This document shows positions 43,506 through 48,394 of a DNA stretch of 64,000 nt, in pieces; position 1 is the first letter of the stretch; each line of letters begins with the position of its first letter. Under the pieces are notes generated by a model. That model made no database searches and had not been told where the DNA came from. It was given only the letters and a program-made list of their open reading frames with translations. The DNA comes from Flavobacterium galactosidilyticum. GTDB lineage: Bacteria > Bacteroidota > Bacteroidia > Flavobacteriales > Flavobacteriaceae. Both the position numbers and the translations under genes were made by a program. The stretch is taken from contig NZ_CP087135.1 of the NCBI RefSeq assembly GCF_020911945.1, positions 930,001 through 994,000 on the forward strand. Reading direction: 5' to 3'.

Positions 43506-43985
43506 TTATTCTTTTTTTTCTATTCTAAAACCTACTTCGGTAATTCCTTCTAAAGCTTTTACGCCGGGAACTTTACCGCTTTCCCTAACCGCTTGTTTGA
43601 TATGAACTTTATATGTGGAACGGAATCTTACATTTTCTTTATAAACTAGTTTGCTTTCTTTTATATCAGAAAACCCGTCGCCAAGTAATGTGCCATCTGG
43701 ATTAGCCATTTGGTATTCTAAAGTATCAACTTTTGTAAAACCATTTGGCAATTCTAAAGCTACAATTAAAAATAAATTATTGTATTTATAATTATTGTTT
43801 GCTCTTAAATTCACAAATAAATTATAACGTTTTGTTGAGTCTAACTGTGGTAGATTAAAAGTCACCGTGCTGTCTTTGTTCCACGATGAACCCACAGATT
43901 TATACTCATCAAAAACTCTTTTTTTATCGCAAGATGAAAAGATAATTACAATCAATAAAAGTAAAGCGCTATTTTTTATCCACAT
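43506..43985 (-). CDS. gldH: Gliding motility lipoprotein GldH
   Basis: A 159-residue lipoprotein: hydrophobic N-terminus and lipobox IFSSC (acylated C19). The mature sequence DKKRVFDEYKSVGSSWNKDS and TLLGDGFSDIKESKLVYKEN fits GldH, which is required for gliding in Flavobacterium johnsoniae and is linked to the type IX secretion/motility apparatus. It overlaps the end of ricT by 17 bp and precedes the PBP gene by 9 bp. Its presence agrees with the T9SS sorting domain found at 32933-36979. Confidence 0.88.
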   Translation of the reverse strand: MWIKNSALLLLIVIIFSSCDKKRVFDEYKSVGSSWNKDSTVTFNLPQLDSTKRYNLFVNLRANNNYKYNNLFLIVALELPNGFTKVDTLEYQMANPDGTLLGDGFSDIKESKLVYKENVRFRSTYKVHIKQAVRESGKVPGVKALEGITEVGFRIEKKE

Positions 43986-45279
43986 TTTTAGTAATAATTA
44001 TAGGTTTTCTAGGCTCTGTTGGTTTTTTATCAGCAGGAGCTTGACGATTATTGTTTGGGGTTTTGTTATTGTTTGTAATTTTATTTTCTTTTGCAGGCCT
44101 GTTATCTTTTGCGGGTCTGTTATTATTTGCTACAATAACATTTTCGCCGTTAGGCTTGCGTTTTTTGTTTGGTTTTTTCTTTGCTTTAGGTTGGTCAAAA
44201 CGAGTAAGACTCTCTTGCCCCATGGCATTGTTAAAATTTTTCTCAACCTCAACAACTAACTCTATTGCAAAATCTTCTAGCGAAGAAACTTTATTTTTAA
44301 GTTTGTTTTCAGCTACAATTTCTTTGACTTGGTCAATTTTTAAAACATGCCAATTAGAAAAATTATTAGTGTAAGCGAACCACATTAATCCTTTAAAAAT
44401 ATCTTGTTTTTGACAAATAGCATCTCCTTTTTCAGTGACCAATTTAGTGTCGAAATCTGGAAAATCTTTCAGCGCATCCATGTAGGTGTCTAACTCATAG
44501 TTTAAACAACATTTAAGTTTGCCACATTGTCCAGCCAGTTTTTGTGGATTCAAAGACAATTGTTGGTAACGGGCTGCTGAGGTGTTTACACTTCTAAAAT
44601 CAGTTAACCATGTAGAACAACACAATTCTCTCCCACAAGACCCTATTCCGCCCAAACGAGCGGCTTCCTGGCGGAAACCAACTTGTTTCATTTCGATTCT
44701 AGTGCTGAATTCTTTAGCGAAATCTTTGATTAAGGCACGAAAGTCAATTCGGTCATTAGCGGTGTAGTAAAAAGTAGCTTTTGAACCATCTCCTTGAAAT
44801 TCAATATCAGAGATTTTCATTTCTAGTTTTTGAGCAATCGCTAATTCACGCGCTCTCACTTTCATAGGCTCTTCCTTATCACGAGCAACCGACCAAATAT
44901 CAATGTCTTTTTGAGAAGCTTTTCTGTATATTTTTGGGACATCATTGCTTAAATGATTTACCCCTTTTTTCTTCATTTGAATTTTTACTAATTCACCGGT
45001 CAAAGTTACAATTCCTATATCATGACCAGGAGAAGCAACCGTTGCAACGATGTCTCCAATACTTAAAGTTAATTTCTCTGTATTGCGATAAAATTCTTTT
45101 CTTCCATTTTTAAAACGTACTTCAACACAGTCAAATGGAGCGTCTCCATTAGGTAAACTCATATTAGAAAGCCAATCGAAAACAGTTAATTTATTGCAGC
45201 TATCGGTGCCGCAAGTCCCATTATTTTTACAACCCTTAGGTGCGCCACCATCAGAAGTTGAACAACTTGTACATGCCAT
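43969..45279 (-). CDS. ricT: RicT/YaaT-type PSP1-domain protein
   Basis: A 436-residue cytosolic protein. The N-terminus is cysteine-rich (C3, C6, C17, C23, C28). The PSP1 core carries GIGSCGRELCCSTWLTDFRS and LAGQCGKLKCCLNYELDTY, whose cysteines bind Fe-S clusters in the Bacillus RicAFT complex. The C-terminal 80 residues are a low-complexity K/N/P-rich tail. In Bacillus this complex affects RNA maturation and biofilm/sporulation signalling; in Bacteroidetes its role is not settled. It is the first gene of the ricT-gldH-PBP unit. Confidence 0.88.
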   Translation of the reverse strand: MACTSCSTSDGGAPKGCKNNGTCGTDSCNKLTVFDWLSNMSLPNGDAPFDCVEVRFKNGRKEFYRNTEKLTLSIGDIVATVASPGHDIGIVTLTGELVKIQMKKKGVNHLSNDVPKIYRKASQKDIDIWSVARDKEEPMKVRARELAIAQKLEMKISDIEFQGDGSKATFYYTANDRIDFRALIKDFAKEFSTRIEMKQVGFRQEAARLGGIGSCGRELCCSTWLTDFRSVNTSAARYQQLSLNPQKLAGQCGKLKCCLNYELDTYMDALKDFPDFDTKLVTEKGDAICQKQDIFKGLMWFAYTNNFSNWHVLKIDQVKEIVAENKLKNKVSSLEDFAIELVVEVEKNFNNAMGQESLTRFDQPKAKKKPNKKRKPNGENVIVANNNRPAKDNRPAKENKITNNNKTPNNNRQAPADKKPTEPRKPIIITKNVDKK

Positions 45280-45399: not shown

Positions 45400-45437
45400 C
45401 AAAAAAAACCTACTACAATTGAAGCTGTAGTAGGTTG
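45400..45437 (-). terminator. Terminator after the ferredoxin gene
   Basis: On the minus strand AACCTACTACA pairs with TGTAGTAGGTT and is followed by TTTTTT. It ends the leftward trhP-ferredoxin transcript. Confidence 0.8.
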
Positions 45438-45464: not shown

Positions 45465-45695
45465 TTAAGTCTCCTTTACCGATATAATTTTCACCGGACA
45501 GGATTTTGCAGCTAACTCACAGCTTTCAACAATCGCGTGATCAGGTGATTTTAGGGTGAAAAAACCTTTGGCATTTACGGAATGTAGTAAAACCGATTTA
45601 CCGTCTTTTTTTGACATTTGAAAATGTGTTGGGTCCATTTCTACACAGTAATTGCAGCCAATGCATTTGTCTCTTTGTAGAGTTATAATAACCAT
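45465..45695 (-). CDS. Small 4Fe-4S ferredoxin
   Basis: A 76-residue ferredoxin. One [4Fe-4S] cluster is expected from C11, C14, C17 (DKCIGCNYCVEMDP) and C66 (KSCPVKII); C59 is an additional cysteine. It overlaps the end of the U32 gene by one base, so the two are co-translated. In E. coli the TrhP pathway depends on Fe-S components, so this ferredoxin may serve as the electron donor or cluster source for the neighbouring TrhP. That link is inference from context. Confidence 0.88.
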   Translation of the reverse strand: MVIITLQRDKCIGCNYCVEMDPTHFQMSKKDGKSVLLHSVNAKGFFTLKSPDHAIVESCELAAKSCPVKIISVKET

Positions 45696-46936
45696 TATGC
45701 TTCTACAATTTTATATAATTTGTCGGACATTCTTATTCTGAAAGGTAGTTTTAAAGTACAATCATCGCCTTTCGTTGCTTTTTCTCCTATGATATCATTG
45801 ACGTGCATTTCTTCGATTGTCATTTGTTGTGCTCCAGTGCTCGGACCTGTGACTAAAATCGTGTCGCCAACTTTTATATCGTAAGCTTCAATTTTAAATT
45901 GACCGATTCCTGCCTTTGGAAAAAAATGTGTTCCTTTCCCCACATACACTTTTTTCTGAGTCGCCATTGAGCCAGAAACATCACTCCATTCACCTAATTC
46001 TTGTCCGAGATAATAACCTGACCAAAACCCGCGATTGTAAACGGTGTTCAATGTTTCCATCCAAACGGTTACCTTTTCTTTAGAAAAGGTGCCTGCATAA
46101 TAACTGTCGATCGCTTCGCGGTACGTTTTTATTACAGTGGCCACATATTCTGGTGCACGACCGCGACCTTCGATTTTTAAAACCTGTATACCAGAATCAA
46201 TTACTTGATCTAGAAAATCAAGGGTACATAAATCCTTTGGAGACATCATATATTCGTTATCGAGTTCAATTTCAAAACCCGTTTCCTGATCGATAACTGT
46301 ATATTTTTTTCGGCAATTTTGTTTGCAAGCGCCACGATTTGCCGATGAATTATTGGAGTGTAAACTCAAATAACATTTTCCAGAAACCGCCATACACAAA
46401 GCGCCATGACCGAAAATCTCAATTTCTACTAATTTTCCGTTAGGTCCTTTAATGTCTTCTTTTTTGATTTGGTCGGTAATGTTTTTTACTTGGCGCAAGC
46501 TCAACTCGCGGCTTAAAACCATCGTATCAGCAAATAGGCTGTAGAACTTTATGGTTTCGATATTAGTGACATTCAGCTGAGTCGAAATGTGCACTTCCAG
46601 ACCAATTCCTCTGGCGATTGCAATTACGGATTGATCGGATGCAATTACGGCAGTGATATTGGCTTCTTTGGCTTTGTTTAGCAAAGTCTTTACTACAGAT
46701 AAATCGTGATCGTAAATAATTGTATTTAAAGTTAAATAAGTTCTGATTTTTTTGGTTTCGCAACGAAGCGCAATTTCAGGCAAATCGTCCATGGTGAAAT
46801 TTACAGTGGCACGAGCGCGCATGTTTAATTGTTCTACGCCAAAGTAAACGGAGTCTGCATTATTGTCTATTGCAGCTTGAAGCGACTCAAAGTTCCCAGC
46901 GGGAGCCATGAGTTCGATTGTATTGTTTGTTGTCAT
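45695..46936 (-). CDS. trhP: U32-family tRNA hydroxylase (TrhP-like)
   Basis: A 413-residue member of peptidase family U32. The signature EIFGHGALCMAVSGKCYLSL holds C181 and C188, and RGACKQNCRKKY holds C204 and C208; these would bind a [4Fe-4S] cluster. The N-terminal part is a TIM-barrel-like domain (ELMAPAGNFESLQAAIDNNAD). Residues 328-413 form the C-terminal beta-barrel domain (KVYVGKGTHFFPKAGIGQFK ... LPFRIRMSDKLYKIVEA). In E. coli TrhP (YegQ) makes 5-hydroxyuridine at tRNA position 34 using prephenate. The next gene upstream is TrhO, which catalyses the same modification with O2. Confidence 0.85.
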   Translation of the reverse strand: MTTNNTIELMAPAGNFESLQAAIDNNADSVYFGVEQLNMRARATVNFTMDDLPEIALRCETKKIRTYLTLNTIIYDHDLSVVKTLLNKAKEANITAVIASDQSVIAIARGIGLEVHISTQLNVTNIETIKFYSLFADTMVLSRELSLRQVKNITDQIKKEDIKGPNGKLVEIEIFGHGALCMAVSGKCYLSLHSNNSSANRGACKQNCRKKYTVIDQETGFEIELDNEYMMSPKDLCTLDFLDQVIDSGIQVLKIEGRGRAPEYVATVIKTYREAIDSYYAGTFSKEKVTVWMETLNTVYNRGFWSGYYLGQELGEWSDVSGSMATQKKVYVGKGTHFFPKAGIGQFKIEAYDIKVGDTILVTGPSTGAQQMTIEEMHVNDIIGEKATKGDDCTLKLPFRIRMSDKLYKIVEA

Positions 46937-46951
46937 TTTGGTATGAAGTGA

Positions 46952-46984
46952 GCCTTTGCTAAAGTTTAAAACCTTAGCAAAGGC
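46952..46984 (-). other. 11-bp hairpin between trhO and trhP
   Basis: GCCTTTGCTAA and TTAGCAAAGGC are perfect inverted repeats with an 11-nt loop. There is no T run, so it may be an RNA processing or attenuation element rather than a terminator. It precedes the trhP start by about 15 bp. Confidence 0.5.
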
Positions 46985-47008
46985 GATGAGTGAATTTGTT
47001 TGAAAAAA

Positions 47009-48394
47009 CTAGTCTAAAACTTTGTACAATTTATCAGACAAACGAATTCTAAAAGGCAATTTAAAAGTACAAGTGTCTCCCGAAGCAGCGATTGTAGCAG
47101 CTATGTCGTTCACGAACATTTCTTCAATGATTATTTGCTGTTCTCCCGTTGTGGTTCCTTTAATTAAGATTTTATCACCAATTTTGATTTCTCCTTCTTC
47201 AATTAAAAATTGAGCAACGCTTGGTTTTGGAAAAAAGTGAGTTCCTTTGCCAATATATTGTTTTTTAATTTTTGTTTCTTTTTTCAAAACAGTAGCCAAT
47301 CTACGCGTTGTTTTTGTTGCTGCTAATTCTGTCAGATTTGGAACGGCTGCCAATGGATGTTGATTGTTTTTGAAAGTCAACACATCCGATTTTCCTTTTT
47401 TGAAAATCATATTGCCATTTTTAATTCCTCTTCGCACTGCTTTTTGTTCTTCTTCAGGTAAGTGGATAACGTCTACACAGGTCGCAGAACAACAGCCTTC
47501 CATAGCACTAGCACACTCTTCACATTGAATGAAAAGCAAATGACAACCTTCATTCGCGCAATTGGTATGTACATCACAAGGTTTGCCGCATTGATGACAT
47601 TGCGATACAATATCGTCTGTGATTCTTTCGCCCAAGCGGTGATCAAACACAAAGTTTTTCCCGATGAACTTACTTTGTAAACCTTGCTCTTTTACTTGAC
47701 GGGTATATTCAATAATTCCTCCCTCTAATTGGTACACGTTTTCAAAACCTTTGTGTTTAAAATACGCACTGGCTTTTTCGCAACGGATTCCCCCGGTACA
47801 ATACATCAACAATTTTTTATCTTGTTTGTGTGCTGCTAATTGCTCTTCGATGATAGGTAAACTCTCGCGAAAAGTGTCTACATCTGGTTTTATGGCTTTG
47901 GTAAAATGACCGATTTCGCTCTCATAATGATTGCGCATATCAACCACAATAGTATTTGGATCTTCTAATAAATCATTGAATTCCTTCGCTTTTAGATGTA
48001 TTCCGATATTGGTTACATCAAAAGTTTCATCTACTAAACCATCGGCAACAATTTTGTCACGAACTTTTACGGTTAGTTTCAAAAAGGAATGATCATCATG
48101 TTCTACGGCAATATTCAAACGAATTCCTTTCATAAAATCGTATGCTTCAATGGTGTCTTTGAACGCATAGAAATTATCAGCTGGTAACGAAAGTTGAGCA
48201 TTTATCCCTTCATTTGCGACATAAATCCTGCCTAGAACGCCTAATGGATTCCACGCGAGAAATAAATCATTTCGAAATTGTGTTGGATTTTGAATTTGCG
48301 CATAAGCATAGAAAGACAACGTAAGTCGTTGTTTTCCGGCATCATCGATCATGATGGCTCTTTCTTCTGCGCTTAAGGTGTTATACAGTTGCAT
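47009..48394 (-). CDS. trhO: TrhO-type rhodanese tRNA hydroxylase with extra U32-like C-terminal domain
   Basis: A 461-residue protein, about 100 residues longer than E. coli TrhO (YceA). Residues 1-130 are the N-terminal acylphosphatase-like domain. A rhodanese domain follows (IVVDMRNHYESEIGHF, active loop LMYCTGGIRCEKA with C199 and C205), then a cysteine-rich segment (CHQCGKPCDVHTNCANEGC). Residues 378-461 (KQYIGKGTHFFPKPSVAQFL ... LPFRIRLSDKLYKVLD) closely match the C-terminal domain of the adjacent TrhP. TrhO hydroxylates U34 of tRNA in an O2-dependent way. The fusion suggests both enzymes share a tRNA-binding module. Confidence 0.85.
   Translation of the reverse strand: MQLYNTLSAEERAIMIDDAGKQRLTLSFYAYAQIQNPTQFRNDLFLAWNPLGVLGRIYVANEGINAQLSLPADNFYAFKDTIEAYDFMKGIRLNIAVEHDDHSFLKLTVKVRDKIVADGLVDETFDVTNIGIHLKAKEFNDLLEDPNTIVVDMRNHYESEIGHFTKAIKPDVDTFRESLPIIEEQLAAHKQDKKLLMYCTGGIRCEKASAYFKHKGFENVYQLEGGIIEYTRQVKEQGLQSKFIGKNFVFDHRLGERITDDIVSQCHQCGKPCDVHTNCANEGCHLLFIQCEECASAMEGCCSATCVDVIHLPEEEQKAVRRGIKNGNMIFKKGKSDVLTFKNNQHPLAAVPNLTELAATKTTRRLATVLKKETKIKKQYIGKGTHFFPKPSVAQFLIEEGEIKIGDKILIKGTTTGEQQIIIEEMFVNDIAATIAASGDTCTFKLPFRIRLSDKLYKVLD

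Follow-up and report, generated by a model that had tools for sequence, protein, structure and literature searches.

A U32-type barrel domain on the wobble uridine hydroxylase TrhO and a ferredoxin paired with its U32 neighbour in Flavobacterium

Why should an enzyme that probably hydroxylates the wobble uridine of tRNAs end in a domain of its neighbour, an unrelated protein to which the same target base is ascribed, and what is the ferredoxin gene behind that neighbour for? These questions are raised by a three-gene locus in a 64,000-nucleotide stretch of the genome of Flavobacterium galactosidilyticum (contig NZ_CP087135.1, positions 930,001 to 994,000; hereafter the window, in whose numbering all coordinates are given), which consists of one contig of 3,530,395 bases. 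Running leftward on the minus strand are trhO (47009-48394; 461 residues), a gene for a U32-family hydroxylase-like protein of 413 residues (45695-46936) and a gene for a single-cluster 4Fe-4S ferredoxin of 76 residues (45465-45695) that has one base in common with the U32 gene, an arrangement that a preliminary description of the window had read correctly, overlap included.

TrhO itself scores well above its equivalog cut-off (NF001133, 265.6 bits vs 170) and is 96% identical to the nearest named loci. Its active loop CTGGIR (C199-R204) and the tRNA-side basic pair K110/R112 align with C200-R205, K112 and R114 of the Escherichia coli enzyme, and the Flavobacterium protein probably hydroxylates the tRNA wobble uridine using O2. 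The UPF0176_N (residues 25-115), rhodanese (136-231) and Rhodanese_C (245-306) domains are followed by a fast-evolving linker with predicted flexibility (346-376; 47267-47359, minus strand) and a U32-type C-terminal barrel (377-461; 47012-47266, minus strand). This last domain matches residues 328-412 of the U32 protein (45701-45955, minus strand), the homologue of the presumed donor of the graft, at 53 of 85 positions (62%) with zero gaps and an E value of 2e-33. Both the match and the lack of the domain in E. coli TrhO, which ends before the aligned region, had been pointed out in the preliminary description. The domain is carried by all 114 distinct TrhO proteins taken from loci in the genus or in a second family (f2), and by none of eight from other genera of the Flavobacterium family, so that the similarity between TrhO and the U32 protein is not due to chance. 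Many of the 114 were drawn from the best 80 of 565 loci, a list biased to full-length matches, and it is from genome samples, not from these 80, that retention of the domain is claimed below. Among the loci collected, metagenome bins titled Klebsiella, Chitinophaga and Bdellovibrio (L025, L054, L073) bear Flavobacterium-like trhO loci, their contigs probably being mislabelled. A 776-residue frame of TrhO in another genome (G316) was considered as a further fusion and discarded, since the gene in the fetched stretch encodes an unfused protein of 364 residues.

The module on TrhO is homologous to the C-terminal domain of U32 proteins, as had been proposed, and this conclusion rests on direct similarity and on structure. 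The profile search suggested for it, with PF16325 (Peptidase_U32_C; cut-off 28.2 bits), gave no match in TrhO, 12.5 bits for the U32 protein and zero matches above the cut-off genome-wide. Although missed by this profile, the domain shows the fold of the solved U32 C-terminal domain (4he5, 4he6). Sequence searches of the PDB returned a best E value no better than 0.1 with the TrhO domain and nothing up to E 0.1 with the U32 profile, and PF03144 matched the isolated TrhO domain weakly (19.3 bits, under the curated cut-off of 30.3).

How firmly the domain is retained can be read from three genome samples. Across the phylum (296 genomes), the TrhO match reaches at least residue 459 in 18/18 members of the genus and 6/6 of f2, and ends at residue 343-346 in 12/12 same-family genomes of other genera. 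At the level of the order (148 genomes), a TrhO body, counted at a chosen cut of E 1e-30 or better, is present in 110; it is fused in 30 (11/11 genus and 19/19 f2 genomes) and unfused in 80, which include two fragments with the end unseen (G375, G388). Within the genus (140 genomes), 134 have a TrhO body and 132 of these run to at least residue 458; an apparent loss of the domain in G446 and G511 was dismissed, the genes ending at contig ends. The U32 gene is found in 56 of the 140 genomes, 55 of which also have TrhO. When 24 genomes with completeness below 90 or contamination above 5 are dropped, the domain is present in 115/116 genomes, 61 of the 115 being without a U32 gene; the survey of domain frequency called for in the preliminary description finds it in every genus TrhO whose end is visible (132 of 134), and not tied to an adjacent U32 gene. 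Mapped on a tree of 37 checked genomes, all of which have the domain, the U32 gene switches between present and absent no fewer than 8 times, and 9 times on the best tree.

The TrhO domain is under purifying selection, less tight than that on the body. Over 201 pairs, omega is 0.086 for the domain, 0.036 for the body and 0.232 for the linker; among U32-less genomes, it is 0.091 for the domain and 0.021 for the body, all values being sums over pairs with common branches and the U32-less set comprising 10 pairs from 17 of 20 rows, after 3 duplicates. Some domain columns are unchanged in all TrhO copies examined, and many conserved columns are common to the TrhO and U32 copies. The ferredoxin was searched for in the order sample, not in the genus sample: 13 of the 30 order genomes with fused TrhO hold the U32 gene, the same 13 hold the ferredoxin and 17 hold neither. 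Because the domain is kept, and under selection, in U32-less genomes, it appears to serve TrhO in a way that needs neither the U32 protein nor the ferredoxin. In Flavobacterium weaverense (L005, 5606-5734), an intact fused trhO is followed by a decayed ferredoxin remnant, and the fetched locus is without a U32 gene.

As to where the domain came from, a tree of 102 domains (60 of 114 TrhO and 42 of 70 U32 domains; 86 columns, bootstrap not settled, midpoint root) places all TrhO copies on one side of a branch (100/97), adjoining the Flavobacterium U32 copies. The f2 TrhO is nested in Flavobacterium TrhO in this tree and likewise by its body, through successive forks of 97/96, 98/91 and 100/99 in a tree of 45 of 123 bodies that has only 3 f2 rows and does not separate fused from unfused proteins at its base. 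The f2 U32 protein falls outside Flavobacterium U32 (46 of 70 bodies, quick method, no bootstrap). Since the TrhO copies group together, and the f2 TrhO is nested where the f2 U32 protein is not, the simplest history would be a single fusion, in the genus Flavobacterium or an ancestor of it, after which the fused trhO passed once to f2. The fusion would have involved a duplication step in which the 3′ end of a U32 gene was copied onto that of trhO. To explain the 62% identity, gene conversion and a recent graft were both considered and rejected, because identity within a locus is about the same as between loci.

The neighbouring protein had been named TrhP, and this name did not hold. Against the TrhP equivalog (NF011996; cut-off 534), it scores 192.2 bits, E. 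coli TrhP itself scoring 875.4. BLAST against E. coli, a comparison without the Bacillus subtilis and Helicobacter pylori subfamilies, puts UbiU (139 bits) and RlhA (136) as close as TrhP (127), while by profile score TrhP (192 bits) comes out ahead of UbiU (162 bits); TrhP orthology is therefore unsupported. Judged by its domain (PF01136, 231.8 bits) and by the essential Glu and Cys residues, the protein can be assigned to the U32 hydroxylase superfamily: E173, C181 and C188 align with the essential E162, C170 and C177 of E. coli TrhP, and these three, together with C204 and C208, are invariant across 42 U32 rows. Elsewhere the genome encodes one more U32 protein, RlhA (42% identity across 617 aligned columns), and this leaves the protein at 45695-46936 free for another substrate, and it may be a functional analogue of TrhP. 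There is precedent for this in the text of Sakai et al. (PMC6599085), where other U32 subfamilies are proposed as TrhP analogues in Clostridia and Helicobacter. In one genus genome (G486), a further U32 fragment interrupted by six in-frame stops (C16:481319-481762) lies some 3.6 kb away from the intact gene.

The small protein downstream matches two ferredoxin profiles above their cut-offs (PF13370, 47.5 bits; PF13459, 45.4 bits). In the order sample, U32 gene and ferredoxin co-occur in the same 30 of 148 genomes, and the ferredoxin directly follows the U32 gene in 30/30, with a gap of -4 to +80 nt. Outside the order, it lies within 95 nt in 11 of 13 loci (L164-L176), the other two (L172, L174) having a candidate further downstream. 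Twenty further stretches yielded a ferredoxin in five (L190, L192, L193, L194, L197). This association is strong evidence that the ferredoxin would serve the U32 proteins of this clade, though not all U32 proteins, as their dedicated redox partner; of the earlier proposal that the ferredoxin serves TrhP, the pairing with the U32 gene stands and the equation of the U32 protein with TrhP is not established. Electrons would pass from the ferredoxin to the U32 protein. E. coli TrhP is described as carrying a redox-active 4Fe-4S cluster (PMC11138216), and UbiU and UbiV as carrying one 4Fe-4S cluster each (PMC10470549).

Taken together, these results are best explained, with a probability of roughly 0.55, by a tRNA-gripping barrel captured by TrhO and a U32 protein with its own ferredoxin. 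The locus would hold, side by side, the genes for two routes, unrelated in their chemistry, by which 5-hydroxyuridine is made at position 34 of tRNA (ho5U34), the putative product in this organism. TrhO would use O2, and the U32 protein would be an O2-independent Fe-S hydroxylase with the dedicated ferredoxin as electron carrier. Once, in or before Flavobacterium, the 3′ end of a U32 gene, encoding an EF-Tu/IF2-like barrel, would have been duplicated and attached to that of the trhO beside it. On its flexible linker of some 30-50 residues, the barrel would most likely grip tRNA and so help the enzyme to hold or choose its substrates, and it would be kept for TrhO's own sake. EF-Tu and IF2 barrels of this type contact tRNA. 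The tRNA-holding role is suggested by the flexible linker, the translation-factor fold and the columns conserved as in the U32 copy; in the preliminary description's phrase of a common tRNA- or partner-binding module, tRNA binding is thus the likeliest part, whereas docking to TrhP or the ferredoxin is unsupported, since many genomes with fused TrhO lack them (17/30 in the order, and 61/115 in the genus for the U32 gene). That E. coli TrhO bound tRNA-Ala1 and not tRNA-Leu3, the latter mainly served by TrhP (as given in the text of PMC6599085), makes substrate choice a real issue for TrhO. The stronger proposition, that two unrelated hydroxylases share one captured tRNA-gripping module and that in these Bacteroidota the O2-independent enzyme forms a two-component system together with a ferredoxin of its own, is put forward tentatively, as somewhat improbable in full.

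Several observations weigh against this explanation. The predicted model of TrhO is weak (predicted local distance difference test, pLDDT, 67.9; predicted template modelling score 0.43), being confident only in the barrel and parts of the rhodanese domain and falling below a pLDDT of 50 across residues 322-373, the linker region. With 12 K+R vs 11 D+E, the TrhO domain carries almost no net charge, which neither favours nor excludes tRNA holding. No small ferredoxin was found, by a motif search without a start-codon rule in L178-L197, beside 12/12 U32 genes at 47% identity or less (L178-L187, L195, L196) or beside three (L188, L189, L191; 52-57%) of eight at 51-57%, together the 15 stretches without one, and U32 chemistry as such therefore needs no adjacent ferredoxin. 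Ten of these 12 distant U32 proteins align over the same C-terminal region, and in L179, L180 and L195 the U32 gene is followed instead by the gene of a larger protein (375-398 residues) that bears the iron-sulphur motif CxxCxxC. The methylation of ho5U is a further case in point. The genome has a single PF01596 match (170 bits), a TrmR-like O-methyltransferase that scores 80 bits against the tRNA ho5U methyltransferase 8k1f; it scores 133 bits to another bacterial O-methyltransferase vs 69 to YrrM, and the CmoB family stays below its cut-off in the genome (21.1 vs 23.8 bits). The presence of the TrmR-like gene in 30/30 U32-bearing order genomes, including 12 without a TrhO body (some assemblies being incomplete), fits ho5U34 made by the U32 protein, a weak test since the gene is widespread (122/148 order genomes, including 5/6 non-reduced ones with neither hydroxylase). 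Finally, the U32 gene is absent from 75/80 order genomes with unfused TrhO (two fragments included) vs 17/30 with fused TrhO.

This last comparison bears most directly on the alternative that fares best, an unlikely one all the same, in which the graft widened TrhO to tRNAs mainly served by the U32 protein and made the U32-ferredoxin pair dispensable. The E. coli contrast between tRNA-Ala1 and tRNA-Leu3 would give such a widening room, U32 presence changes repeatedly in fused lineages, and a decayed ferredoxin remnant lies next to an intact fused trhO; yet U32 absence is even commoner with unfused TrhO, and a takeover of U32 clients by the grafted enzyme is therefore unsupported.

A still less probable alternative sees in the graft a docking module through which TrhO would bind a partner that the two enzymes share, such as the ferredoxin or the U32 protein itself. 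In its favour, trhO and the U32 gene are close together: of the 55 genus genomes in which both occur, 54 have them on the same strand of a single contig, no more than 1,369 nt apart. The two domain copies also have conserved columns in common. As a general role, however, docking to the U32 protein or the ferredoxin was rejected, because both are missing from 17 of the 30 fused-TrhO genomes of the order, and purifying selection on the domain persists in U32-less genomes. A passive remnant of a local duplication, to which the faster evolution of the domain than of the TrhO body would point, is an improbable reading of the graft given zero losses in 132 genus genomes with a visible gene end, columns unchanged in every TrhO copy examined and retention after transfer to a second family.

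The surroundings of the three genes add a few observations. Downstream of trhO and before the U32 gene, where many relatives have only about 6 nt, lies a 15-bp hairpin (46952-46984, minus strand; -21.7 kcal/mol, z -8.5 vs shuffles) with no T tract directly 3′ of it. A terminator-like hairpin with a T run lies 3′ of the ferredoxin gene (45407-45436, minus strand); the region has four such sites vs 2.6 expected from shuffles. The next gene (43969-45279, minus strand) encodes a protein with a Cys-rich start, which we take to resemble PSP1/RicT proteins. No tRNA genes were found in the 64-kb window.

What emerges is that TrhO has indeed captured, apparently once, and retained a domain from an unrelated enzyme to which the same target base is ascribed, and that the U32 gene is paired with a ferredoxin gene; the functions of the two additions, the TrhO domain and the ferredoxin, we infer. 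Naturally fused TrhO, whose extra domain can be removed and is inherited separately, offers a test of how TrhO picks its tRNAs, and the U32-ferredoxin gene pair a test of what reduces the Fe-S cluster of a U32 hydroxylase; if our explanation is true, the ferredoxin would name the electron donor for a U32 RNA hydroxylase. Since TrhP proper is described as occurring mainly in γ- and β-proteobacteria, and the word ferredoxin is absent from the main text of that work (Sakai et al. 2019, PMC6599085), Bacteroidota may have a further U32 route. Neither a TrhO fusion nor a U32-ferredoxin pair was found among titles and abstract openings in the searched open-access literature.

With E. coli TrhO (YceA), the Flavobacterium TrhO shares 53% identity across 339 residues, the CTGGIR loop and the basic K/R pair; E. 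coli TrhO, however, stops at 350 residues, without linker or barrel. E. coli TrhP (YegQ) and the U32 protein have in common the U32 domain, the glutamate and two cysteines checked and a C-terminal domain in the same place, but their 28% identity is no better than that to UbiU or RlhA, PF16325 gives 75 bits there vs 12.5 here, and a ferredoxin partner gene goes with the Flavobacterium protein. The U32 peptidase of Geobacillus thermoleovorans (4he5, 4he6) has a C-terminal domain of the same fold (root-mean-square deviations of 1.2 and 1.6 over 80 residues to 4he5) at 15-16% identity, and whereas that domain sits on a U32 protein, here it is also found on a rhodanese-type TrhO. The barrels of EF-Tu, EF-Sec and IF2, finally, are approached through fold matches to IF2 and EF-Sec; they differ in that the PF03144 cut-off is missed and in that TrhO carries its barrel without a GTPase.
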